From Brasenia schreberi (taxonomy: Eukaryota; Streptophyta; Magnoliopsida; Nymphaeales; Cabombaceae): a stretch of 64,000 bases of DNA. The notes beneath the pieces were generated by a model. That model did no database searches and was not told the DNA's origin. It saw only the letters and a list, made by a program, of their open reading frames with translations. Numbering within the stretch: the stretch's first letter is position 1; each line of letters opens with the position of its first letter. Where the stretch lies: NCBI GenBank assembly GCA_036023115.1, contig JAYKKT010000040.1:2787501-2851500 (forward strand). The letters are read 5' to 3'. Position numbers and translations under genes: made by a program. Below, one piece after another: positions 9,858-57,400 of the stretch.

Positions 9858-12800
9858 TCATCGTCTTCTCATGCCTCGCCCCCGACTACGAAGGGCACCA
9901 CCACCTCGACTAGCCATTGCGTTTCCAGCCACCTCACCTTGGGCGCTCTCCGACTACACCAGAACAGTGAAATCAGCATGAATAATAGCTCAAGAGATGA
10001 GGACCACACACGCACATATCATTTTGAGTGCATTGGTCTATATTTTCTGCCTTGTGATAGAGATGATGACTTTTTGTTTCAACTTTTATAACGAGAAAAA
10101 TTGATGTCAAAAGGATTTGCCATGTTCGAATTTCAACAAGATTATAAGGTTACCTTTGGGTTTTTTACAGTCTCGTCCACACCGAGTATAAGACAAGCTG
10201 CCTCTGTGGCAGCATTTATGGCATTCATCTGCAGTAGGATATTGATTGGTTTTAGTTGACCAACAAATAAAAAACATAAAAAAGATGGCAAATAAAAGCA
10301 TCGACCGAGTACCTTCACAAGAGCAGGTTCCCACACAAAATTCGCAAAGGAATCTGCAATTCCACCAGTGTTGATGTCGACCCCATAATTCGCACCATCA
10401 CCTGCGCCAGGCACCACTATGTCAAAATTCAGATAATTTTTTCCTTTCTGATTATAACGAGTTACAGAACAAGATTGGATGACGTTCGAACCAGACGATA
10501 AAGCATGCTTTTGTCTGAGCTTGTTTAGCACATCAGTTGCATCGAAACCAGCATTATCACATAACTGCCGTGGGATACCCTGCATTCATCGAAGCAAAAT
10601 AGATGAGAAAAACTATAAAAATAAAGATCTTGGTCGTTTAGCTGAATCTAGTAAGACGCCATAGAAAGTTGCCGCATAAACAAGCACGTGTGTCTCCACA
10701 TGAACCCACATGTGCACGCATCATGTCTATCAAATCCTTAAATCCAATTGTTTGAAAGAATTTTAATTTTTGTATTAATAGATAATAATAAATGACAAAC
10801 CACCAGACCAGAATCGGAATGTCCACAATTTTCTAAAGAGAAAAGTAACAAGAAATATAGTTCAGTGTGAAATCTCAGATTGATTGCTCCCAACTAGATT
10901 TGTCCATGACGCATTCTAGGATGTACAAATATTTATGATACGTATAAGAAGTGCCAGTCCGGCATAGCCATATTCCTTGGACCTAATTAACCAAAAAAAC
11001 ACAAAAGAAATAAAAACAACCTCAAGTGCTTTGGCATACGAGTTTATGAAAAGCTGTGATTTTCCAGGTATACTCCGAGCATGTTGCCGCAAGTAACTAT
11101 TGAGCTCCATCTACCAAAACAACAAAGTCATGATAAGCAATGCTAGCAATGCATAACTAGTAGAACCTTTCACTAGAGCAAGCCACAAAAGAAACCAAGA
11201 GAAAATTATACGTCGATGGCACCACCACCAGCCACAACAGTGGAGTTCTTCAGTGCTCTTCTAACAATCATTATAGCATCATGCAGGCTCCGCTCTGCTT
11301 CTTCAATGAACTGAGATAGACATTAAAATGTCCAATTTGGTTAGTTACCGGGTCAAATGTGTAATAAACAACGATAGTCTACTCTCATGTCATAAACAAA
11401 TCATATGCATGTATATCATCCACGCACATGCAACAACATGTCAAGCCCATTGTCGTCAAAGACATTAAGAGAGTATGATTCAGATTCTGATAAATTCGTA
11501 GCTGAAACAAGTTGAAATAAATGATAACTAAGTCCATCTTGTTTGCTCCAAAGGAGACTTTCCCCCGAAGCACCTCTTCACGTGACAATGTGTGGTGCTT
11601 GCATACGATTATAGGAAGCTATAACCATGCTGCCTTAGTATATCTCAACATCTGAATTTTGTGGATTGAACAATACTGCAATTCATCCATGGGCAAGATC
11701 AAACTTAAAAGATATACATCCAAATACCTGATCTGCTCCACCGCGTAAAACAATTGTTGCTGTTTGACCAGAAGGACACCCACTGAAGATATTGAACCTT
11801 TCGTTCCCAACTTGTCGCTCCTCAAATACCTCACAGGAGCCAAGAACCTGATAAACAATAGCAAGAATTGACAAATCAATATCGAAAACTCATTGAAATG
11901 CAGAACATCATAAAACAATGTAATGAAGATGGATATTGAATATTTGCAGCCAGCAACTACGATTCTCATGCCAAATGAGATGAGGAAAAAGAAGGTACCT
12001 CATTTACAATGTTGTTCACAGTTGTCTGTACAGTTCCCCCAGTTGCGGCTGCAACACGCTGCAGATCTTCTTCAGTCACACGACCAGCACAGAAGACATC
12101 TCTATCAGCAAAATACTGCATGATTGACAACATATCAAATTTATTCATTTGAGGTAAAATGCAGTACATAGCTTGGTCAATGAAGATACCTGTGTTGCTA
12201 AATCACCAATGGCCAACCTTGAAAGAACAATCTTTGCTCCACTTTTAACGCATTTGTCCAATTTGTCATATATGATATTCCACTCGGCATCAACAATTGA
12301 TTGATATTGCAGTGGATCTGAGAGTCTACAAACAAAACGGAAGTCGACATTGGATGTTTACCAATTTAATAAATAAATCTTATTATCTTTGATTCTCTAC
12401 CTCACTTCTGCATTCTCCTTCTCTGATTTCAGCTCTAACTCAATATTCAACAAAAGTATCTTGGGATTCAGAAAATTCTTTGGTTGCTGCTCAAAACCAG
12501 CATAGGAAAATGTCTTTTTGAAAGCAACACCTTGTACAAGAAAAGAGTCACGCATTGTTCCTCCTGGGACCTAGAAAAATGAAATCAAAATGGGTTCATC
12601 AGATTTTACCCTCAGCTAAAACAATTCATGTTAGCCACTATCAGAAAAAGTAGTGATGTCTCTCTTGTAACAACAGTCGAACATGAAATGCTTATGGACC
12701 ATGATGTATCTGAACTTATCAAGGTGAGGACTACCACATGATAGGGCTCTGTGGAAACAAAGAAACCATGTAGCCGACCCCATCAGTATGGGAAAAGGCT

Positions 12801-14953
12801 TAGTTGTTGTGATATCCTTGAAATTATAGTTCTACAAGCCTGATTGCTGTACTGTTCTGTTCTTTTTGAAAGAACTTTGTTACCTAAGTCTTAAGCCAAT
12901 GACAGAACAAATAGCAAGAGAGACTGATCACATTCTATATTTTTCATACTTTTTGTTTAGTTTATGCGATGGCATACTTTCATATTTAGAAAAAGAAAAA
13001 GGACTAACCACATTGACATTGAAGATGCAATAGACAATAATTACCAACCATTTGATAAACACAAACACCTTGCGTGTCAACCTTAAAGTTCTCATGAGAT
13101 AGTGAGAATCATAGAAGAAAACAAACAAAGTACCTTTTTAATACCGATCAAGTTTAATCTATCATCATTCCCTATTGACATTACAGCATCTACCACCATG
13201 TGGGCAAAAAACTCCTTCTCACCGACAATCAACTTTGAAGACAGAGTTGTTGCAGCACATCTGGCCAAAAGCTCTCTTTTCTCTTCAATGCTTTTACCCT
13301 CTATACTTGCAGAGAGATCCTTGATTTTGTTAATTGCCTGCAGGAGAAAGCAGATGATTATTGAGTTTGAAAAGCATGGCTTTGGAACTCAACCATGAAC
13401 CAACTAAAAGGACTTAATTAGAATGAAAGTTTTTACCAAGTTGCATGCTGTTCGGTAACTACGTATGAGGTTTTGAGGATGAACACCATCCTCGATGAAA
13501 GGCTTTGCCTCCTTTAAAAACTCTCCAGCAAGAAGGACGACAGTAGTTGTTCCATCACCAACCTACAAATCAGTAACGACCAATTATGAATCAGAAGCTA
13601 TGAAGCCCAGAGGAGAACATCCATGCTACAAAAGAATAACTTAGATATGCATCAATAAAGAAGCTTGAATGGGTCTTAGACAAAGGAGATCTGAAGATTC
13701 AGCACAGAGATTTAGCTAAGGTAATAATAAATCAATAAAAATCAAACTTCCCAATTCATGTGACATAGCAAAAGTGAACCCTCAAGAAAGGACATATAAA
13801 GATGAACTATGAAGATCAACCAAATTTATGTGCTATTGCAGTTGTAAAAGTTATGGAAGTTAAATGAAGTTGATATGACAAAAGCAGAATAGCTCATCAA
13901 AGAAACCACCCAGTTTCTTGCTAGAATTCGAGTTCAGCAACATGTGACACATTTCTGAGGCAGACATGGAAGAACAGATAGATCTGACTAGACATTTTCA
14001 TCAACAGTCATATATAACAGGTTCTCTCATATAACTAACTAAGTTTCTGATGAGCAATGGGTACTTCATAAGTACATAAACTGAACCACGTCTCATTCTC
14101 GCAGCCAGTAGACGGCATAAAAGAGACGCAGACTAGACTTCCTTTTAAATCATGCACGTCACAGTGACTCCCATCTTAAATGCAGAGCCTACTAAAGAAT
14201 AAAGAACCCAATTCACTTTGGCATCAAAGACCCATCAAATGGATCTGATTTTTGGTTTCAACGGGGTAAACCTAAGATCGCCACTTAAATCCGTGCGCAT
14301 ACATAATGTGATTCTTTGTTTCCAACAGACCAAGCACCAGACCAGCATTTAAATGTGAGAGTTTACATAGTTATTCTTTCTTCCAACAGACTAAGCACAA
14401 GATTAACACTTCAATCCGAAAGTTGACATTGGGGATCAAGACAAAATCAAAATTTGGGGAAACAAACAACGATACTGCGATCAAATTCGACCAAAATCAG
14501 TGCATAACCGAATTAAGCACAGAAAACACGACAACTAAGGCAGGAAAACAGAAGGGAAAGATAACAATGCCTCAGAATCCTGAGATTTGGCGATATCGAC
14601 GAGGATCTTCGCCGCCGGGTGAACGATATCGAGGAGCTTCATGATGGTGGCGCCGTCATTGGAAATGGTGGTATTGCCTTTATCGTCGTGGATGAGTTTG
14701 TCCATGCCCCTCGGTCCAAGCGTCGTCCTAACGGCATCGACGACGACCGTGCAGGCATTGATGTTGCTGATCAGTTGGGCCTTCCCTTGTGACGTATCGG
14801 TTCCTTCCTTTAGAAGGATGATCTGGGGTTGCTGTAGCAGCAACAACACCAAAATGAGAGATTTCTCATACTATCTTCAGATATCAACGAAGAAAAGAAA
14901 AACTAAAGCAATAAAGAATACGAGAAGATAGTACTCACCAACATAGCGACCAT
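9858..14953 (-). CDS. CCT7: T-complex protein 1 subunit eta (CCT7), complete, 14 exons
   Basis: Subunit of the cytosolic TRiC/CCT chaperonin, which folds actin, tubulin and other clients using ATP. Coding exons: 14953..14939, 14831..14571, 13562..13437, 13337..13134, 12570..12401, 12325..12190, 12115..11999, 11847..11728, 11310..11212, 11110..11021, 10579..10492, 10401..10313, 10228..10154, 9953..9858. They sum to 1,686 nt, or 561 residues, close to the usual plant length. All phases agree. Seen: [10 protein letters not shown] near residue 40, the nucleotide-binding GDGTTT (94-99), AGGGAID ending at 416, and a C-terminal Gly/Arg tail ending GRGMRRR. The order [35 protein letters not shown] marks the eta subunit. 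Odd points: intron 2 uses a GC donor; intron 11 is 90 nt and stop-free; the residue after KALE is Gly where relatives usually have Val; the fourth intron carries a LINE 3' tail. A GA-rich leader precedes the start. Confidence 0.96.
12720..12812 (+). mobile_element. RTE LINE 3'-end fragment in a CCT7 intron
   Basis: Plus-strand text reading CATGTAGCCGACCCC, then GGGAAAAGGCTTAG and TTGTTGTG matches the 3' end and TTG tail of the two large RTE copies at 21.1-24.3 and 29.0-32.3 kb, in the opposite orientation. It is a strongly 5'-truncated insertion within the intron between exons 4 and 5. Confidence 0.75.
13563..14570 (-). other. CCT7 intron 2, GC-AG type
   Basis: The exon ends in the codon GAG (14573-14571) and is followed by GCATTG. 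The next exon begins GTTGGTGATGG after TTTGTAG. Only a GC donor at 14570-14569 joins the conserved SQDSE to VGDGTT in frame; a GT five bases further would shift the frame. The intron is about 1 kb with no gene inside. Confidence 0.85.
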
Positions 14954-21097: not shown

Positions 21098-24000
21098 ACA
21101 AACAACAACAACAACAACTAAGCCTTTTCCCATACTAGACGGGGTCGGCTACATGGATTCTTTGTTTCCACAGATCCCTATCGTGTGCCATGTTAGCAGT
21201 TACCTCCCAATAAGCTAGATCATTCTTTATTGTTTCTTTCCAACACTTTTATGGTCGTCCTCTACCTCTTTTAATACTTTCCAAATTTAGTTTTTCTAAC
21301 CTTCCTACAGGTTCTTCTTTTGATCTTCTTTCTATATGTCCAAACCATCTTAAACGATGTTCTCTCATTTTATCCTCTATTGGTGCCACTCCTAATTTGT
21401 TTCTAATAACCTCATTATGTATACGGTCTTTTCTTGTATGACCACTCATCCATCTCAACATCTTCATTTCTGTCATGATTAACTGCCCAACACTTAGAAC
21501 CATAAAACATGGCAGGCCTAATTGCTGCTCTATAATATTTACCTTTTAACTTTAATGGTATCTTCTTATCACAAAGAATACCTGATGCTCCTCTCCATTT
21601 TAACCAACCAACATTAATTCTATGTGTAACATCTCCATCAATTCTTCCATCACTATGAAAAATTGACCCTAGGTATTTAAAACTTTCCTTTTGGGGAATG
21701 CAATGTGTGCTAATTTTAATTTCCATGTCCTCTGAAGTAACCAAATGATCAAACTTACATTCCATGTATTATGTCTTTGTTCTACTAAGTCGGAGGCCTT
21801 TGCTTTCTAATGTTTCTCTCCATAATTCCAATTTTCTATTAACTTTTTCCTTAGACTCCTCCACTAATACAATGTCATCTGCAAATAACATATACCAAGG
21901 TACTTCATCTTGAATATGTTTTGTTAACTCATCACCATTATAAATAAGTATGGACTTAAAGTTGATCCTTGATGTAACCCAATATTAACTTCAAAGAAGT
22001 CTGTTGTTCCTTCATGAGTCCTCACACATGTTTTTGCACCATCATACATGTCTCTTATAAGGTTAATATATGTCAATGGGATACCTCTTTTTTCCAAAGT
22101 TCTCCAAAGAACCTCCCTCGATACCCTATCATAAGCTTTTTCTAGATCAATAAATATCATATGAAGGTCTTTCTTTTTTGCTCTAAAATGTTTCAAAAGA
22201 CGTCTCAAAAGGTGAATCGCTTCAATAGTAGATCTGCCTGGCATGAATCCAAATTGGTTCTTTGTTGTACTTGATCATTGTCTTAACCTACGTTCGATAA
22301 TTCTTTCCCATAATTTCATAGTATGACTCATTAACTTGATACCTCAATAATTCACACAATTTTGAATATCTCCCTTGTTCTTATATATGGGTATAAGTGT
22401 ACTTGCTCTTCATTCCTCGGGCATCTTTTGGTTTTTTTATATTTCATTAAATAGTCTTGTGAGCCAAGTGATTCCTATTTCTCCTAGTATTTTCCAAACT
22501 TCTATAGGAATATTATCTGGTCCTACCAATTTACCACCCTTCATATGTTTAAGAGCCTCTTTGACTTTATTCTTTTGAATACGTCGGTAGAAATTGTGGT
22601 TTATATACTTTTCTGATTTGGCTAAATCTCCTAAACTAATACTAACATCTTTATTTTCATTAAAAAGATTATAAAAATAGTTTTTCCATCTATTTCTTAT
22701 ATCATCATTTGCCACTAGAATTTTTTCATCCTCGTCTTTTATCCATCTATCATAATTAAGATCTTTAGTTTTCTTATCTCTAGCCCTAGCTATCCTAAAA
22801 ATATCTCTTTCACCCTCTTTTGAGTTGAGTTTTTTATATAAGTCCTCCCAAATCTTAGCTTTTGCTTCACTAACGGCCTTTTTCGCTTCCTTCTTTGCTT
22901 TCTTATAAGCTTCTAAAGTTTCACTAGTTTTCTTGGCATAATGTAATTTGTAACATGCCCTCTTTGCCTTGATTTTATTTTGCACTACTTCACTCTACCA
23001 CCAAGCTTCTTTTTGTGCAAGTACACCTCCCTTAGATACACCTAACACATCTTTCACCACTTTCCTAATATGTATAGCCATATTGTTTCACATATCACAG
23101 GGTGTGCCAACATAATTCCAAACATCTCCTTGAAGGACTTTCTGTTTAAATATGTCTTCTTTCTCGCTTTTGAGGTTCCACCATTTAGTCTGAATAGCTC
23201 GATGCACTCTTTTCTTCTTTGTCTATTTTTTTATTTGTAAATCCATAACTAAAAGTCGATGTTGGGTGGTTAAGCTTTCTCCTGGAATTACCTTACAATC
23301 TTTACAACACACTCTATCTTTTTTTCTACAAATAAAGTAATCAATTTATGTTTGTGATAAGCCACTCTTATAAGTAATTAAATGTTCATCTCATTTTTTG
23401 AAGATTGTATTGACTATAAAGAGATCAAATGCCATAGCAAAATTTAAAATCTCCCTACCTTCCTCGTTTATATCCCCAAAACCAAAGTTTCCATGAATCC
23501 CTTCATATTTTAATGCCTCTTTACCGACATGTCCATTTAAATTTTGAAATACCTTATCTAACTCTTCCCAAAAAATTGTCTTTATACTATCTTCTAGTCC
23601 TACTTGGGGTGCGTAAGCACAAACTATATTCAAAACCTCTGCTCCTAACACTAATTTCAACGTCATGATTCGGTCACCATATCGTTGTATGTCTACTACA
23701 CTCTCCTTTAAATCTTTATTTATAATAATACCAACTCCGTTTCAAGCCTTTTCTTTACCTGAGTACCATAATTTAAAATCTGTATCCTCTATCTCTTTTG
23801 CTTTTTCTTCAACCCATTTTGTCTTTTGTAAACATAAAATATGAATCTTTCTCCGAATCATAGTATCTACCACCTCCATTAGCTTACCGGATAATGTTCC
23901 GATATTCCAAGAACCAATACGAATCTTATTATCTAGGACTAGTTTCCTTACCCCCCGCATCCGTCCATAATCAAAATGCAGAGACCCTCTCTGAAAATTT

Positions 24001-24317
24001 TTCACTATATTCGGGCGGCAATGTAGCAGGACTAACTTCTTTACCCACACCCGTCAATGATGTGGGAACCCTCTCTGTAATTGATTCACTACATTCGGGT
24101 GAAAATGTAGTGGTCCTTGCTTACTTCTTACTGCATTCGGGCTCTGCAGCACGTCGCTAGGCGGGGATGCCCCAAAGCAATGCTATCATTTTTGTAATCC
24201 ATGTTATAAAAATCCGACTAAGTTTTACGCTGGCTGTAGGAAGCCTAACACAACCTTCCTCCTTTATCCGGGCTTGGGACCGGCAATGCAAGGGTGATCC
24301 CTTACATGAGCAGAGTT
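21098..24317 (-). mobile_element. RTE-clade LINE, copy A (near full length, defective)
   Basis: Non-LTR retrotransposon on the minus strand, flanked by a 17-bp target duplication: ACAAGAAAATCACGGTT (21081-21097) and ACAAGAAAATCACAGTT (24318-24334). From the 5' end it has an endonuclease part (IRIGSWNIGTLSGKLMEV, about 23.9 kb; CAYAPQVGLEDSIKT), a linker rich in Lys, a reverse transcriptase ([39 protein letters not shown]) and a C-terminal region ([31 protein letters not shown]). It ends in a CAA/TTG microsatellite tail. There is no RNase H and no poly(A), as expected for RTE. It is broken by many frameshifts and stops. It also lacks about 36 nt of the endonuclease around the catalytic GGDLN segment, and about 22 nt near the 3' end, relative to copy B. 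Confidence 0.92.
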
Positions 24318-24334
24318 ACAAGAAAATCACAGTT

Positions 24335-29032: not shown

Positions 29033-32000
29033 ACAACAACAACAACAACAACAACTAAGCCTTTTCCCATACTAGACGGGGTCGGCTACATGGATTCTTT
29101 GTTTCCACAGATCTCTATCGTGTGCCATGTTAGCAGTTAACTCCCAATAAGCTAGATCATTCTTTATTGTTTCTTTCCAACACTTTTGTGGTCGTCCTCT
29201 ACCTCTTTTAATACTTTCCAAATTTAGGTTTTCTAACCTTCTTACAGGTTCTTCTTTTGATCTTCTTTCTATATGTCCAAACCATCTTAAACGATGTTCT
29301 CTCATTTTATCCTCTATTGGTGCCACTCCTAATTTGTTTCTAATAACCTCATTATGTATACGGTCTTTTCTTATATGACCACTCATCCATCTCAACATCT
29401 TCATTTCTGTCACAGACATCTTTTGTACATGTTGATGATTAACTGCCCAACACTCAGAACCATAAAACATGGCAGGCCTAACTGTTGCTCTATAATATTT
29501 ACCTTTTAATTTTAATGGTATCTTCTTGTCACAAAGAATACCTGATGCTCCTCTCCATTTTAACCAACCAGCATTAATTTTATGTGTAACATCTCCATCA
29601 ATTCTTCCATCACTTTGAAAAATTGACCCTAGGTATTTAAAACTTTCCTTTTGGGGAATGCAATGTGTGCCAATTTTAATTTCTATGTCCTCTGAAGTAG
29701 CCAAATGATCAAACTTACATTCCATATATTCTGTCTTTGTTCTACTAAGTCGGAGGCCTTTGTTTTCTAATGTTTCTCTCCATAGTTCCAATTTTCTATT
29801 AACTTTTTCCTTAGACTCCTCCACTAATACAATGTCATCTGCAAATAACATACACCAAGGTACTTCATCTTGAATATGTTTTGTTAACTCATCCATCACC
29901 ATTATAAATAAGTATGGACTTAAAGTTGATCATTGATGTAACCCAATATTAACTTCAAAGAAGTCTGTCGTTCCTTCATGAGTCCTCACACATGTTTTTG
30001 CACCATCATACATGTCTCTTATAAGGTTAATATATGTCAATGGGATACCTCTTTTTCCAAAGTTCTCCAAAGAACCTCCCTCGGTACCCTATCATAAGCT
30101 TTTTCTAGATCAATAAATATAATGTGAAGGTCTTTCTTTTTTGCTCTAAAATGTTCCATAAGACGTCTCAAAAGGTGAATCGCTTCAATAGTAGATCTAC
30201 CAGGCATAAATCCAAATTGGTTCTCTGTTGTACTTGATACTTGTCTTAACCTACGTTCAATAATTCTTTCCCATAATTTCATAGTATGACTCATTAACTT
30301 GATACCTCGATAATTCGCACAATTTTGAATGTCTCCCTTGTTTTTATATATGGGTATAAGTGTACTTGCTCTCCATTCCTCGGGCATCTTTTGGTTTTTC
30401 CATATTTCATTAAATAGTCTTGTGAGCCAAGTGATTCCTATTTCTCCTAGTATTTTCCAAACTTCTATAGGAATATTATCTGGTCCTACCGATTTACCAC
30501 TCTTCATATGTTTAAGAGCCTCTTTGACTTCATTCTTTTGAATACGTCGGTAGAAATTGTGGTTTATATACTTTTCTGACTTGGCTAAATCTCCTAAACT
30601 AATACTAAAATCTTTATTTTCATTAAAAAGATTATAAAAATAGTTTTTCCATCTATTTTTTATATCATCATTTGCCACTAGAATTTTTTCATCCTCGTCT
30701 TTTATGCATCTAACATAATTAAGATCTTTAGTTTTCTTATCTCTAGCCCTAGCTATCCTAAAAATGTCTCTTTCACCCTCTTTTGAGTTGAGTTTTTTAT
30801 ATAAGTCCTCCCAAATCTTAGCTTTTGCTTCACTAACGGCCTTTTTTGCTTCCTTCTTTGCTTTCTTATAAGCTTCTAAAGTTTCACTAGTTTTCTTAGC
30901 ATAATGTAATTTGTAACATGCCCTCTTTGCCTTGATTTTGTTTTGTACTACTTCACTCCACCACCAAGCTTCTTTTTGTGCCGGTACACCTCCCTTAGAT
31001 ACCCCTAACACATCTTTCGCCACTTCCTTAATATGTATAGCCATATTGTTCCACATATCAGAGGGTGTGCCAACATAATTCCAAACATCTCCTTGAAGGA
31101 CTTTTTGTTTAAATATATCTTCTTTCTCACTTTTGAGGTTCCACCATTTAGTCCGAATAGCTCGATGCACTCTTTTCTTCTTTGTCCATTTTTTTTATTT
31201 GTAAATCCATAACTAAAAGTCGATGTTGGGTGGTTAAGCTTTCTCCTGGAATTACCTTACAATCTTTACAACACGCTCTATCTTTTTTCTATAAATAAAG
31301 TAATCAATTTGTGTTTGTGATAAGCCACTCTTATAAGTAATTAAATGTTCATCTCGTTTTTTGAAGATTGTATTGACTATAAAGAGATCAAATGACATAG
31401 CAAAATTTAAAATCTCCCTACCTTCCTCGTTTATATCCCCATAACCAAAGTTTCCATGAATCCCTTGATATCCTAATGCCTCTTTACCGACATGTCCATT
31501 TAAATCTCCTCCTAAACAAATCATCTCCCTTTGTGGAATCTTTTGAAACACCTTATCTAACTCTTCCCAAAAAACTGTCTTTATACTATCTTCTAGTCCT
31601 ACTTGGGGTGCGTAAGCACAAACTATATTCAAAACCTCTACTCCTAACACTAATTTCAATGTCATGATTCGGTCACCATATCGTTGTATGTCTACTACAC
31701 TCTCCTTTAAATCTTTATTTATGATAATACCAACTCCGTTTCGGGCCTTTTCTTTACCTGAGTACCATAATTTAAAACCTGTATCCTCTATCTCCTTTGC
31801 TTTTTCTCCAACCCATTTTGTCTCTTGTAAACATAGAATATGAATCTTTCTCCGAATCATAGTATCTACCACCTCCATTAGCTTACCCGATAATGTTCCG
31901 ATATTCCAAGAACCAATACGAATCTTATTATCTAGTACTAGCTTCCTTACCCCCCGCATCCGTCCATAATCAAAATGCGGAGACCCTCTCTGAAAATTTT

Positions 32001-32316
32001 TCACTACATTCGGGCGGCAATGTAGCGGGACTAACTTCTTTACCCACACCCGTCCATGATGTGGGAACCCTCTCTGCAATTGATTCACTACATTCGGGCG
32101 AAAATGTAGTGGCCCTTGCTTACTTCTTACTGCATTCGGGCTCTGCAGCACGTCGCTAGGCGGGAACGCCCCAAAGCAATGCTCATAATTTTTGTAATCC
32201 ATGTTGTAGAAATCCGACGAAGTTTTACGCTGGCTGTCGGAAACCTAACACAACCCTCCTCCTTTATCCGGGCTTGGGACCAGCAATGCAAGGGTGATCC
32301 CTTACATGGGCAGAGT
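29033..32316 (-). mobile_element. RTE-clade LINE, copy B (near full length, few lesions)
   Basis: 3,284-bp non-LTR retrotransposon on the minus strand, flanked by a perfect 12-bp target duplication GATTGAGCATAT (29021-29032 and 32317-32328). Frame pieces run 32202..31252 (endonuclease: SWNIGTLSGK, LCLQETKWVGEK, GGDLNGHVG, TQIDYF), 31170..30037 (linker plus reverse transcriptase: [30 protein letters not shown]) and 29902..29072 (catalytic LFADDIVL, KYLGSIF, C-terminal [11 protein letters not shown]), ending at a CAA/TTG tail. Lesions seen: a frameshift near 31,250; loss of one base in a T run near 30,052 where copy A has one more; and a TGA in place of the Gly of GLHQGS near 29,935. Otherwise it is very similar to copy A. 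Plant annotation pipelines often call such frames craniofacial-development-protein-2-like. Confidence 0.95.
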
Positions 32317-36283: not shown

Positions 36284-36575
36284 AACAACAACCCAGCTTT
36301 TTTCTGGTATTAGATGGGGTCGATTAGATGAATTCTTTGTTTTTATATGGCTCGATCACGTACCATGTTTGCAGTTAACTCAAAATAAGTTATATAATTT
36401 TTTATTGTTTTCTTCAAACACTTTAATGGTCTTTTTCTTCTTCTTTTAATATTTTAACAATCTACTTTCTCATACCTTTTTACTTAAAGTTTTCTTTAGT
36501 TGTTTCTATATTTCAAACCTCTTAAACGATTTTCTCTCGTTTTATCATCACCATCTAATTTTAATTATTCCAAAT
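36284..36575 (-). mobile_element. RTE LINE 3'-end fragment
   Basis: Diverged copy of the RTE 3' end: AACAACAACCCAGC tail, GATGGGGTCGATTAG, CATGTTTGCAGTTAACTC, AAACGATTTTCTCTCG, in the same order as copies A and B. Truncated at its 5' side. Confidence 0.75.
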
Positions 36576-41713: not shown

Positions 41714-43109
41714 ATGAGTCTCCCTCAGCTCAATAATCACCTCACTGATCAAGAGATGACCAATAAAAGATCAGAACTAATTTTTGATGCTGCAGTCATC
41801 AGGCAACAACAAGACATCCCTAAGGAGTTTATTTGGCCTGAAGACGAGCGCAGCTATGAGCTGGATGAGCTCCATGTTCCTCTGATTGATCTCTCTGCTT
41901 TCTTTTCGACCGGCGATCCTGCGGCCGCTGTTAAGGCCGCTGCCATGATGGGCGAAGCATGTAGCAAGCATGGATTCTTCCAAGTCATAAACCATGGAGT
42001 TAGACCTGACCTCATCGAGGCCGCACACGCCCACATGAACTCCTTCTTTGATATGCCTCTATCTAAGAAACAGAGAGCTAAGAGGAAGCTTGGGGAGAGT
42101 TGTGGCTATGCTAGCAGCTTTACCGGAAGGTTCGCTTCTAAGCTCCCATGGAAGGAAACACTCTCTTTTGAGTACTCTACCTCAAATCCCGATGCTGTAG
42201 ATCAGTACTTCAAGAGGGTTCTTGGTGATGAATTTGATGAATCAGGGTGAGGAATTATCATCACAATTTTGACAAATCATACATCTTAATCTGCTTCTTT
42301 GTTACAATTTTGAGAAATGTTGATGCATATCTGCCTTGTTGAATGTGTTTCAGATCGATTTACCAAGAGTACTGTGCAGCAATGAGCAACTTGTCCTTAG
42401 GAATCATGGAGCTTTTGGCTACGAGCCTAGGGGTGGACAGGATGTATTACAGAGACTTTTTTCAAGGCAACAATTCAATCATGAGGTTGAATTACTATCC
42501 TCCCTGCCAGAGGCCCGATCTTACCCTCGGCACTGGGCCGCACTGCGATCCTACATCTCTTACAATCCTTCACCAAGATGATGTTGGGGGCTTAGAAGTG
42601 TTTGTGGAGGGCAAATGGCACAGAATCAGGCCTAATACGAATGCCTTCGTTGTGAACATAGGCGACACTTTCATGGTAACAACTTGGTTCTCTGAAATCT
42701 CCATCTTCATTCTCACAAACCATGAAGTAAATTGTATTTCTCCTTCATCAAATAGCTCTTAATATTATCTCATATACTGATATGAGACATGAACTGATCA
42801 AATTGCGATTTCTCACAGGCATTGTCAAATGGGAAGTACAAGAGTTGCTTGCACAGGGCAGTAGTGAACAGTAAAACTCCTAGGAAATCCTTGGCATTCT
42901 TCCTGTGCCCCCTAATGGACAAGATTGTGAGGCCCCCAACAGCATTGATAGATCAAGAAAATCCAAGAATCTACCCAGATTTCACATGGTCTACACTGTT
43001 GGAATTCACTCAGAAGCATTACAGGGCAGATATGAAAACTCTCGACACGTTCACCAAGTGGATTTCAAGCAGCGGTAATAATAAATCAAAATCCACTTTC
43101 TGTTTCTGA
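41714..43109 (+). CDS. GA20ox: Gibberellin 20-oxidase, complete, 3 exons
   Basis: Fe(II)/2-oxoglutarate dioxygenase that oxidises C-20 of gibberellin intermediates (GA12/GA53 to GA9/GA20), a rate-limiting cytosolic step of gibberellin synthesis. Exons: 41714..42246, 42354..42675, 42819..43109; 1,146 nt, 381 residues, normal for the family. Seen: the GA20ox-specific LPWKET (144-149), [11 protein letters not shown] (224-234), iron ligands H241, D243 and H297 (GPHCDP and SCLHRAVVN), and the 2-oxoglutarate-binding R307/S309 (PRKSLAFF). The DIOX_N half with VPLIDLSAF and [11 protein letters not shown] lies in exon 1. Both introns are short GT-AG, at the positions usual for GA20ox. LPWKET and NYYPXCQ distinguish it from GA 3-oxidase and C19-GA 2-oxidase. 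The ATG chosen is the first after the TATA box. Feedback repression by gibberellin is known for the family; nothing in the sequence proves it here. Confidence 0.95.
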
Positions 43110-44060: not shown

Positions 44061-44605
44061 TATGTGAACCCAACTACCCCACTGCGTAAGAGAGCCTAGT
44101 AAAGGGAATTATAAAATTATATGAAATATTTGCAGAATTCAGCTTGCGTAACTCGGGTCACCTGGAATCAGCTATACGACTAGGAGGTGATTCGCAGTCG
44201 GTGTATTATATCAAATTCAATGATCTAAATTCCGTGATTCCACGATATATAATTGTCTAAGCATCATTTTGCTCCACCTCTACGTTAAAGATCATCTGGA
44301 ATTAGACAAAATTCGACCAAGTTGAGCACTAACAAAAGAAATATGAAGATGCCTAGTAATGCCATACATCCATATATCTGCTTCCTTGAGGAAGAATTCC
44401 TGTCAAATGACAAAATCGGTCGCCGAAATACTTTATGACCTTCACCAACTTGTTAGTTGGGCTGGTAATCGAGCTTAACAAATCAAATGAACCAAGATTG
44501 CTTGGTTCCATAATTTTCTATACGAATGGAGCTGGAATCGGCTCGTCATTCTTTTAGGAGACAAGCTAAAACGAGTTGAGAGAACATTTACTTAAATTAA
44601 CACCA
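43110..44605. other. GA20ox 3' flank, no further gene
   Basis: 3' UTR followed by intergenic DNA. It includes a (GA)n run near 43,557 and the (GT)n(GA)n tract listed separately. No coding region recognised. Confidence 0.45.
43978..44058. repeat. (GT)n(GA)n compound microsatellite
   Basis: About 33 bp of GT followed by about 47 bp of GA. Confidence 0.95.
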
Positions 44606-44606
44606 A

Positions 44607-44705
44607 CGGTAACAACAACTAATCCCTTTTCCATACTAGATGGAATCGGTTCCATGAATTCGTTGTTTTCATAGAATCTGATCATGTGCGATACTTGGCC
44701 TAAAC
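44607..44705 (-). mobile_element. RTE LINE 3'-end fragment
   Basis: AACAACAACTAATCCC, then CCATACTAGATGG, TCGGTTCCATGAATTC and GATCATGTGCGATAC parallel the 3' 100 bp of RTE copies A and B, with substitutions. Confidence 0.7.
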
Positions 44706-47022: not shown

Positions 47023-47038
47023 TTATTAAAACCAGCAA

Positions 47039-47249
47039 CAACAACAATAATAACTAAGCTTTTTTTCCATATCATATGGGTCGGCTACATAAATTCTTTG
47101 TTTTCATGTAACTCAATCATAATTTGTAGAATCGATGATAAATAAGTCCGACAAAGTTTTATGTTAGATGTCGGAAGCCTAACACAACCCTCCTCTTTTA
47201 TCCGGACTTGAAACCGTCATGCAAGAGTGATTCCTTACATGAGCGGAGT
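47039..47249 (-). mobile_element. Miniature RTE element: both ends, no coding body, own target duplication
   Basis: About 210 bp on the minus strand. The left half matches the RTE 3' end (CAACAACAATAATAACTAAG, GGGTCGGCTACATAAATTC). The right half matches the RTE 5' end (CCGACAAAGTTTTATG, GTCGGAAGCCTAACACAACC, then CTTTTATCCGGACTTG, GAGTGATTCCTTACATG). The whole ~3-kb coding interior is absent. A 16-bp direct repeat TTATTAAAACCAGCAA flanks it at 47023-47038 and 47250-47265. So it inserted as a short unit, or suffered an internal deletion after insertion. Confidence 0.85.
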
Positions 47250-47269
47250 TTATTAAAACCAGCAAGAGA

Positions 47270-49472: not shown

Positions 49473-50310
49473 ACCATCAATAGTAGAGTTCAAAATTAAC
49501 CCCCCTCCTCTAGGATCAGGACCTGGTGGTGGAGTTCTCTTTGACAAAACACATGAACCAAGGTAAGTGTAATCTTATGATTGTTTTGGCCCTTGACAGA
49601 AGGAAATAGAGAACCAAAGAGAGACCAGAGAAGGAACAAACACAAAGACAAATCTACTCCGTACTTGTTGAAGTTGCATGAGATTTAGAGGCAGGAAACG
49701 GACAGCGGTAAAGCTGGTGTGGCTCACGCACGCGCACACAGAGGACCCTTTATATCTGAGTTTGTTGTATGAGATGGTCGACACCTAAGCAAGCATCACT
49801 CCCTTCATAAATGTAAAGTAGACAAATGGATTCAATTTTATGTCTCCATCTGCCAAGATGGTTTGGTCCCCAACTTTGTAGCTGAAAGTGGATAGAAAAC
49901 GGAACAGTTGATAAGAATTCTTGAGCTTTTACCAGAATGTCTTGTTGTGTGTGTGTGGAGTCTCTGTGCGTTTTCATCGCTTGAGCCTTACCGCAGTAGC
50001 AATGGCTTGCTTGTTTGTGTACATCTGTGAGCGCGTCTTATAACAGGGCCAGTTCGAAGGAAGATGTTGAAACCTTGTTACAGAAAGTGTCGCAGTTTCA
50101 GTGTGGGTGGGTGAGCGCATGCACTGTACAAAAACCAGTTGACAGAAGATGGAGGGCTCTCTCTCTATCCCTATGAGAGTGTATTTGCATTGTGTCACCA
50201 AGTAATAGTTTATTGTAGTGCGGGTTTAAAGATAATTAAGTCACGCTAGAGCACGAGTTTATATTGGATTGTTGATTACAGAGAAACTCCATAATTTTAG
50301 ACAAGAAGCA
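49473..50310. other. Intergenic, no gene seen
   Basis: Short overlapping frames only; none has a recognised domain, promoter or splice pattern. Confidence 0.4.
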
Positions 50311-50462
50311 ACAACTAAGCATCTTCCCATCTAAAATGAGGTCCATACTATTAAATCTGACAAAAGTTAAATACTATTAAATCCCACAAAAGTTAGGTTT
50401 TGTAAGTCTACCGCAACCTTCTTTTCACATTCAGGTTTGAGATCTGTCATAACAGAGTTAAC
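50311..50462 (-). mobile_element. Second miniature RTE-like element (diverged)
   Basis: The left part resembles the RTE 3' end (GCAACAACTAAGCATC, TTCCCAT). The right part resembles the RTE 5' end (CTGACAAAAGTTA, AGTCTACCGCAACC, then TTCAGGTTTGAGA, TCATAACAGAGTT), with no coding body between. It is a worn cousin of the element at 47.0 kb. No convincing target duplication found. Confidence 0.5.
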
Positions 50463-54479: not shown

Positions 54480-57400
54480 TTAAGCTTCCATTTCTGATAG
54501 TAGAGCACACTTTCTTTTCGCTAGCATCAACTCTCTTTCCAATCTCTCGATCTGTTCGGATGATGGAGGAAGCAGAGAAAACATGGACATACAAACTCTT
54601 AGTTAAGCATATTTGCATAAAGAGCAGTATTCCAAGGAAAACAAATTAAGTTTCAAATGTACCTCCTGCCTAAGTTCAGTTTGTCGTTGCCTATGTTGTT
54701 CGCACCTGTTTATAGTAGCTAAACTTAGCACTTTAAGTAAAACAATTAATGTCCAATAATATTTTAAACCCACCAAATAGCATTTTTAATTGAAAATCAA
54801 AATCCTAAGCAAAATATTAGTAAAAGCCATATCTATAATATCATGAAGCAGTACCAACACTTGTACTGATTCTAGGATTTGTAACCTCCTAAGTACCTCA
54901 TGAAAAGCTGCACATTTTCTTCACATAGTGTATCAATTGATACGGGATCTGCACCCTCCACAAGTGCCTCCATTTTAATGGGATGCTGCAAAACAAGTGA
55001 GTCACTTTACATGAAGTGCTGTGTGGAACCCACAACAATGAATTCTGCAAGGTCAAACAGACCAAAAGCCTAAGGATTTTATCTACCATACTACCACAAA
55101 AGAATCCATAATAGATAAATACGATAAAGTTTTATGCGGGCTGTTAAAAGCATAACGCAACTCTCTTCCTTTATTCGGACTTGGGACCAGTCATGCAAGA
55201 GTGATCCCTCTCTTCCTTTATTCGGACTTGGGACCAGTCATGCAAGAGTGATCCCTAACATGTCATACTACCACAAAAGAATCCATGGTAGACAACTTTA
55301 TCCGATTTATCTACCATGGATTCTTTTGTGGTAGTATGGCATGTAAGGGATCACCCTTGCAAGACTGGCCCCAAAGTAGGTTACCGCAAAATAACATTCA
55401 CTAAAACTTTCCTTGATGTATGTTATTTGCATATCACATTACTTTAGTGAAATAACAAAAAAATTGAATTATGGGGAGAAACATTAGAATGTAAAGCCTT
55501 TTGACTTAATAGAATAAAAATAGAATATATGGAATGTAAGTTTGATCATTTAATTACTTCGATTACTTCGGAGCTAAGTCACACAGACACTTCTAAGAGG
55601 TGGAGTGTCGACCTCGACACGAGTGTGACACCGACACCGTGTCGGTGCGGCATGGCAAAACAAAAAATGAAAAAAAAAATTTTAACTCATGGTTTTGCCG
55701 TCTATGGTGTATTTATCCTGGAAAACCCGATCAAAGAGGGAGTAATCCACGAAGACGATACCGAAGCCTCTTAGTCGACTCGTGACCTTACCTCCCATGA
55801 TGACACCTCAATTACCTCACCATAGTTTCCAAAATGCTCATTCAGCTTGTCTTCCATCATCTCCCATAAAACTCTGCCGATGAACATAGAAAAATATCTC
55901 AACGTGGACCTTCTTCACTTCCTTTTGTGTGGATATTCCACGCTTCAAAATCTGGTATCGATTTTGAAGTTCGGGTCTTTTTGGATAAATGAGTCTGAAA
56001 ATGTGAAGATGATTTGTGTATTATGATGAAATTAGTAGTTGTTTACCGTTTATGTGTTTTACTTTAATATAAAGTTGTGTACTTGCTATTGTCATATACT
56101 TATGTTAATTGATGTCTCACTTGTTGTAGCTTGGATATTATATATAATATATAATATTATATACCCTAGCCGTGTTGCTGCACCCAAAAAATTTGAAATT
56201 TGCTGTATCTCGCACCCGTGTGACATAACTTCGGAGGATATAGAAATTAAGATTGGGACACAATGCATCGCTCACAAGAGTTTTAAATATCTAAAGAGAT
56301 GAAAAAATGGATGGAGATATTACACATAGAATGAATGTAGGTTGGTTAAGATGGAGAAGGGTATAAGTGTTCTATGTAACAAGAAAACACCATTAAAATT
56401 GAAAGGTAAATATTATAGAACAGCAATTACACCTCCTATATTTTATGGTTTTGAGTGTTGGGCAGTTAAGCATCAACATATACATGTTTGTGACACAATT
56501 GAAGAGGTTGAAATGGATGAGTAAAAAGAAAAAACCTACATAATAAGGTTATTAGAAACAAATTGAGAGTGGTACCAATAAAGGATAAAATGAGGAAAAA
56601 TCATTTAAGATGGTTTGGACATGTAGAAAGATGACCAAAGGAAGCAACAGTAAGAAGATAAAAAAATGTATATTTAAAAAATGTTAAAAGTAGAAGAGGA
56701 ATACAACAAAAGTATTGGAAAGAAACAATAAAGAATGATCTAGCTCATGTTGAGTTATCTACCAGCATGGCACATGATTGAGCTACATGGAAACAAAGAA
56801 TTAGTTGTTGTTGTACTACTACAAAAGAATTATTTGAATTTGAACAACTTAAATTCATGTGTGCCACAGCATGGCAGAACTTAGAAAGACATTACATAAC
56901 GGAGCTATACAAGAAAAACTCATTTACAAGATCTCTATACTCATTTTTCATTTGGTGATTTATACCATTTATAAACACGCAAGTACATAATGAAATCCAC
57001 CTGTACTTCTAAGAGAAAACCAAATGAACACTGGATCCCAGACTCCAACGACAGTTAACAGTTTGGACAGAAGAACCCAAAGTTGGAGTAGAAATTGGGC
57101 GCTTTCCAGAAGTTGGACACACCTGTCCATTTTCTGGAGACCATATTAAAGCTAAAGGGCTTAGGCATGTCTCTCTCCAGTCATGTCCAACAACCATGCT
57201 CTATGTAGTCATGTGTTCCAGCAGAAATCAAGTTAAATGGAGGACATCTTTAATAAGTACTGCAATGCCATGGCAAAAATTAAACTGTCAACATGCACAT
57301 CCGGGAAGGCAAAAGCTTACTTGTGCACCTCCAACCAGGCTGCCAGATTTGGCCGCACCATGGATGATAGGCGAAGGACCAACCACATTTCTTGAAGCTG

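Follow-up and report, generated by a model that had tools for sequence, protein, structure and literature searches.

Host genes and RTE copies in the window

The window, that is, the whole 64,000-nucleotide stretch of Brasenia schreberi DNA analysed here, holds a coding stretch like that of a gibberellin 20-oxidase (41714-42250; DIOX_N domain), which matches flowering plants, and a piece of a TCP-1/cpn60 chaperonin gene (10142-10585, minus strand). One of the window's genes has named protein matches that include Nelumbo (58%) and Datura (56%). Exact-pattern scans of viral, bacterial and archaeal contig collections gave no match, a result that says little given the contents of these collections. 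The window also contains full-length RTE retrotransposons and two short elements built from RTE ends, with the following features:

21101..24317, minus strand: full-length RTE, target duplication AAC(T/C)GTGATTTTCTTGT
24250..24322, minus strand: twister-P1 match at the 5′ end of this RTE, 46.8 bits, E 3.2e-7
29034..32316, minus strand: full-length RTE, target duplication ATATGCTCAATC, RVT_1 and Exo_endo_phos domains, 0.7% from locus L064
32250..32322, minus strand: twister-P1 match at the 5′ end of this RTE, 49.4 bits, E 5.7e-8
47023..47038, no strand: target-site duplication on the 3′ side of the focal element, perfect 16-bp repeat
47039..47249, minus strand: body of the focal element (family SIDE1), 211 bp; all 40 scored genome matches span its join
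47039..47053, minus strand: TTG-type 3′ tail, read from the sequence; tails vary among other copies
47039..47120, minus strand: RTE 3′-end segment including the tail, 81-82% to 21101-21170 and 29034-29107
47117..47120, minus strand: internal join, where the two segments overlap by 4 nt (ATGA as read on this strand), the same in 30/30 aligned copies
47117..47249, minus strand: RTE 5′-end segment, 81% to 24185-24317 and 32183-32316
47184..47255, minus strand: twister-P1-like ribozyme (RF03160) match, E 0.0016, its 33.9 bits falling short of the gathering cut-off (67.2)
47250..47265, no strand: target-site duplication on the 5′ side of the focal element, perfect 16-bp repeat
50309..50459, minus strand: another, worn end-only copy that lacks the SIDE1 join

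The partner LINE has endonuclease and reverse transcriptase domains and a TTG tail. Pieces of 29072-32202 match Exo_endo_phos with 25.5 bits and RVT_1 with 57.6 and 36.1 bits. On sequence features, namely its tail, its length of 3.2 kb, these domains and the likeness of its ends to those of plant RTEs, it is assigned to the RTE clade. Our RTE set comprises 18 loci, the two copies of the window and 16 from the twister-model search described below (one of them, L074, without a recognisable 3′ end). Across 17 copies the mean pairwise divergence is 3.5%, and the closest pair, the copy at 29-32 kb of the window and L064, differs by 0.7%. Open reading stretches reach a maximum of between 138 and 738 codons, depending on which of the 18 copies is read. 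A target duplication under the strict measure given below flanks 14 of the 18 (swapped-flank control 1/174), and 11 of these 14 end within -2 to +2 of AAC. The RTE copies are young, which makes a supply of RTE protein plausible.

Other RTE remnants are scattered through the window. Isolated 3′ ends with no 5′ end alongside lie at 36284-36358 and 44599-44672 and, on the opposite strand, at 12752-12808 and 56774-56802; some of them carry GAATTCATG-type variants. Between 55060 and 55400, RTE 5′ ends are rearranged: about 47 bp are duplicated in tandem, an inverted copy comes next, and palindromic arms surround CATACTACCACAAAAGAATCCATGGTAGA within this region.

An element made of two RTE ends

The first-pass annotation had described the focal element as a miniature RTE consisting of ends only and flanked by its own 16-bp target duplication. 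The perfect repeat is indeed found at both sides: TTATTAAAACCAGCAA occurs at 47023-47038 and 47250-47265, with no third occurrence on the plus strand of the window, and it scores 16 on the strict measure. The first A of the element's AACTCC may coincide with position 47250 and thus be common to element and duplication. The annotation's composition, about 100 bp of the RTE 3′ end and 110 bp of the 5′ end with nothing between, is right in architecture and slightly off in the lengths, which we find to be about 134 nt of the 5′ end and about 70 nt of the 3′ end plus a TTG-type tail, the middle being absent. The predicted fold of the family consensus contains a 3′ hairpin in the segment 47039..47120 (minus strand).

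The copy at 50309-50459 had been offered as a second example of the same architecture, favouring a family over a single deletion. It is end-only, as claimed, and so supports the architecture; it does not support the same family, the SIDE1 join being absent there. Only some 40 nt make up its 3′ part, and its target duplication scores 8, below the strict threshold, with about 12 of 15 letters agreeing by eye.

The focal element belongs to a dispersed family

We searched the plant's own genome (1.055 Gb, 92 contigs) with the focal element and scored 40 matches from 6378 first-look candidates, a figure that is not a copy count. The annotation had proposed such a search, on the grounds that many copies sharing one internal junction, each with a different target duplication, would support a mobile family. 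All 40 scored matches span the join, at 83-100% identity, although picking them by likeness to all 212 bp gives an advantage to copies that have the join. The 30 best matches to the worn query (L001-L030, hence not a random sample) were aligned, and every one has the same join, point changes aside. Divergence in this alignment averages 7.3% from the consensus and 11.6% between pairs, and position 114 is a sub-group site, with T in 16 copies and C in 14. We refer to the family as SIDE1, after the short internally deleted elements (SIDEs) considered in the Discussion.

Target duplications were assessed with a strict measure (ungapped, at most one mismatch, score at least 11), and flanks swapped between copies served as control (809 pairs, about half of those possible, chosen by a fixed random rule). 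Twenty-six of the 40 SIDE1 copies have their own duplication, against 13 of the 809 swapped pairs; the other 14 fall under the threshold. An earlier gapped measure gave 24/30 copies and 42/870 control pairs. Seventeen of the 26 duplications end within -1 to +2 of AAC, where an offset of +1 or +2 may reflect only shared As because AAC opens with two of them, and the remaining nine end elsewhere (-18 to -2, and +4). AAC forms the first bases in 28 of the 30 aligned copies, L018 and L025 being different. At position -1 the 40 DNA-selected copies have A in 16, T in 9, C in 8 and G in 7, and this mixture upstream of AAC indicates that the element begins at AAC. The 3′ tails are variable among copies.

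SIDE1 copies therefore combine both LINE ends without a coding middle, one join in many copies and the hallmarks of target-primed reverse transcription. The single join together with separate target duplications identifies SIDE1 as a real family that moved in its short form. The same evidence supports the earlier suggestion of a non-autonomous passenger of the RTE, with the RTE proteins as the presumed means of movement.

When 239,420 bases, made up of flanks and the window, were scanned, three non-focal matches across the join region were returned, of which L025 carries the SIDE1 join and L015 and L051 are gapped; since the scanned sequence is clustered and biased, no copy number is drawn from it. 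At the 5′ flank of L015 (match 1501-1707), 18 extra nucleotides lie between the target duplication and AAC. They include CCCATGTAA, which is itself part of the element, and look like the product of a small jump at the 5′ junction. For the second 5′ hairpin of SIDE1, the copies compared gave no informative covariation.

A twister-like 5′ end

In a relaxed Rfam scan, the 5′ ends of four SIDE1 copies matched twister-P1 over the full model length. Extended to L001-L030, the scan gave a match at E<=1 in 27 of the 30 loci (model positions 1-68; best E 2.3e-11, weakest 0.007) and none at that level in L017, L018 and L028. Within the window, Rfam at the gathering cut-off found nothing, and at E<=10 the only twister matches are the 5′ end of the focal element and those of both full-length RTEs. 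The cut-off of 67.2 is reached by no SIDE1 copy among L001-L030, the best scoring 61.2. The 5′ strand of P1 lies in the host flank, which is not conserved, and a P1 stem conserved on both sides of the cut was not found. The scores below the cut-off are likely due to this, because the model includes both halves of P1 and here the half upstream of the cut is host DNA. The focal match, for example, takes in about 5 nt of host flank.

We take the cut to fall between U and A of UAAC, in keeping with the usual position in twisters and with the U5-A6 site of a review, so that the cleaved RNA would begin with AAC; the expected cut in the focal element is directly 5′ of AAC. The Rfam twister-P1 consensus has U directly before the cut. 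Thirty-one of the 40 DNA-selected SIDE1 copies have no T before the expected cut, and T is present there in 41 of 52 twister-selected loci, where a preference for T is built into the model. Should cleavage require the U, most insertions could not cut themselves and only some copies could serve as active sources. The review names the U5-A6 cut site for one twister and calls P1 dispensable for twister cleavage (PMC6154101). Judged by the covariance model only, the SIDE1 5′ end is like a twister ribozyme that lacks its own P1 stem, and this modelled resemblance offers a reason why just two RTE ends suffice.

Hammerhead ribozymes were absent by Rfam from the 30 SIDE1 loci at E<=1 and from the window at E<=10. 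A plant retrozyme, which has hammerheads in its terminal repeats, was ruled out on the lack of a hammerhead match in these loci and the window.

A twister-selected sample contains a second family

A genome search with the twister model, in which 62 of 85391 first-look candidates (again not a copy count) were scored, gave 55 matches at E<=0.001. A single one passes the gathering cut-off, with 67.3, and it is an RTE 5′ end. Classified by downstream sequence, the 55 loci comprise 38 RTE 5′ ends, 10 end-only elements and 7 other or truncated loci, two of which (L049 and L110) are RTE-like. Because this sample was picked by ribozyme score, conservation of the ribozyme within it proves nothing; the picking took no account of joins or duplications.

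The SIDE1 join is present in only two of the 55 loci, L052 and L102. Seven of the 10 end-only loci (L037, L040, L059, L087, L092, L103 and L109) have another join and form a family that we call SIDE2. In these copies a stretch resembling GGATTCTA lies near the end of the 5′ part, and an A-rich stretch of variable length comes after it; six of the seven go on with AATCCATG, L092 being shorter, and L040, L059 and L092 have a (TTGTAG)n-like tail. All seven SIDE2 target duplications score at least 14; in five the end lies exactly in front of AAC, and the other two end at -1 and +4.

The remaining end-only locus, L095 (G000:C90:39258082-39258582), has a unique join, a longer 3′ part and a twister match. 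Its target duplication scores 11 and ends at -1, and it is possibly a newborn SIDE. In the duplication test of 11 elements, the 10 end-only loci and the 50.3-kb copy, eight pass and none of 110 swapped pairs does; L052 and L102 are under the strict threshold.

Sequence beside the join and its likely ancestor

At the position of the join, RTE 5′ copies read AATTATGA, and a further RTE fragment of the window has ATGATTGAG in its 3′ end; the young RTEs carry CGATAG at the place where this fragment has ATGATTGAG. The 3′ side of SIDE1 is mostly GGGCTATGTGG or near variants, and the sampled RTEs have mostly GGGATCTGTGG or GAGATCTGTGG there. Likewise, SIDE1 has GGATTCTACAAATT where the sampled RTEs mostly have GGATTACAAAAATT. 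SIDE1 thus differs from the sampled RTE copies on both sides of the join, and it looks older than they do. These differences suggest descent from another RTE subfamily: the ancestor of SIDE1 was probably an older subfamily than those sampled.

The two ends of the RTE share a 9-nt complementarity, ACATGGATT/AATCCATGT, in six of eight copies tested; the other two are without it. In each of the six, 1-7 of 100 single-letter shuffles do as well, and the complementarity lies near the breakpoints of both SIDE1 and SIDE2. As a lead, pairing of the two ends could favour a jump from one to the other.

Discussion

An end-only design headed by a ribozyme was predicted, and then found for R2 in Drosophila and named SIDE (PMC3414825). 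The R2 SIDE, which has a 5′ self-cleaving ribozyme and a non-LTR 3′ end with no middle, is moved by its partner's machinery, and its 5′ end is set by self-cleavage from a co-transcript (PMC3414825). SIDE1 has a similar layout. The R2 element differs in that its ribozyme is HDV-like (PMC3774820) whereas ours resembles a twister, and in that it targets the 28S rRNA gene and is called rare, whereas the elements described here occupy dispersed sites and have an RTE partner. TbRIME of Trypanosoma brucei is described as apparently an internal deletion of a LINE, with a 5′ end that matches the L1Tc ribozyme (PMC3414825). It belongs to another clade, ribozyme class and kingdom, and is likened to SIDE1 by description, not by sequence. 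The Persaeus SIDE of Lepidoptera, derived from CR1 Zenon, reaches a high copy number, has several independent origins and shows a 5-bp direct repeat around the deletion (PMC6740152); it differs from SIDE1 in clade (CR1), and its description there names no ribozyme. The same source calls SIDEs rare and, apart from its Lepidoptera case, names those of fruit flies, Anopheles and T. brucei and no others (PMC6740152).

RTE partners are also on record. RTESINE1, MAR4, Bov-A2 and RTE1-N1_LA combine an RTE (or BovB) 5′ head with an RTE or BovB 3′ partner (PMC3747384); these are mammalian, the likeness is again one of description, and no ribozyme is named in their entries. The land-plant SINE/LINE pairs consulted in the table of that source are all tRNA-headed, and plant RTE tails are given as (TTG)n or (TTGATG)n (PMC3747384). 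Truncated but competent twisters are stated to be conserved at RTE 5′ ends in one sentence referring to work in preparation (PMC7761336), a sentence that names neither plants nor end-only families. Among the open-access journal papers listed in our search, there was none on a plant SIDE or twister-headed SINE.

Three other explanations have to be weighed. The short copies could be independent internal deletions of full-length RTEs after landing, with no mobile short form at all. The 50.3-kb copy, which lacks the shared join, and L095, with its unique join and longer 3′ part, are what such deletions would leave, but one join at separate sites (30/30 aligned, 40/40 spanning) and the duplications belonging to each of 26/40 copies argue against them. 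For SIDE1, independent deletion is refuted by the shared join, and as an account of the short copies in general we regard it as very improbable, though it may hold for L095 and the 50.3-kb copy. Alternatively, every copy might be newly made by an RTE reverse transcriptase that jumps from the 3′ to the 5′ part at a preferred spot, without SIDE masters. Such jumps fit the ATGA overlap at the join, the complementarity between the RTE ends in 6/8 copies and L095 as a possible fresh product. They do not account for the letters beside the join that SIDE1 copies share and that are absent from the RTE copies seen, nor for sub-group sites such as position 114, which are as in a self-propagating family; jumping anew for each copy is very unlikely.

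Finally, SIDE1 might be an ordinary pol III SINE with an internal A/B-box promoter, its twister likeness inherited but idle. Its size, TTG tail and RTE-type 3′ end are like those of the tobacco TS SINE, a plant element with a 3′ end of about 100 nt in common with an RTE LINE; the TS SINE differs in having a tRNA head with A and B boxes (PMC3747384). The SIDE1 consensus has a B-box-like stretch at position 37 and an A-box-like stretch at 27, with two mismatches each in a scan without chance control. The two stretches are only 10 nt apart. In tRNA genes the spacing is wider than that. Moreover, the twister model's match on this strand covers the B-like stretch, the A-like match with the fewest mismatches (one, position 191) is at the 3′ end, and SIDE1, SIDE2 and the RTE all start at or near the expected twister cut. 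We consider a pol III origin unlikely. The consensus scan, again without chance control, yielded no convincing pair of boxes for a pol III promoter; A and B boxes of tRNA-like quality and spacing were not found in the consensus, and a tRNA search of the window found none.

The explanation that we favour, and consider probable, is that these elements are SIDEs of the RTE, released by a twister from read-through RNA and inserted by RTE proteins. SIDE copies would be transcribed by read-through from host promoters, the twister would cut off the upstream RNA, and the remaining transcript would start at AAC. The RTE endonuclease and reverse transcriptase would then recognise the 3′ hairpin and TTG tail, and target-primed reverse transcription of the SIDE RNA would leave the target duplications of 11-23 bp. 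The short form may have been born in a different and probably older RTE subfamily, by a jump or deletion where ATGA gives a 4-nt overlap, and may then have multiplied as such. Such an origin would have occurred at least twice, for SIDE1 and SIDE2, with L095 as a possible newborn.

A broader and more speculative reading, to which we give about one chance in three, is that the RTE repeatedly spawns promoterless, twister-headed SINEs in which the ribozyme replaces the pol III promoter, that complementarity of the RTE ends aids the end-to-end jump, and that new families keep forming. Any host transcript running through a suitable copy would then yield a correctly ended RNA, and the complementarity would bring the RTE 5′ and 3′ ends together to give SIDE1, SIDE2 and L095.

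At least two SIDE families are thus present in one plant genome, with 5′ ends that coincide with, or lie close to, the cut expected for a twister-like ribozyme. Their presence may help explain repeated twister matches in such a genome, and they would offer a clean case for the minimal needs of a LINE RNA, namely a 5′ end that is defined and a structure for recognition at the 3′ end. For annotation, end-only copies are easily mistaken for RTE fragments. If the arrangement is general, twister matches in plants would mark RTEs and, with them, a hidden class of ribozyme-headed SINEs.
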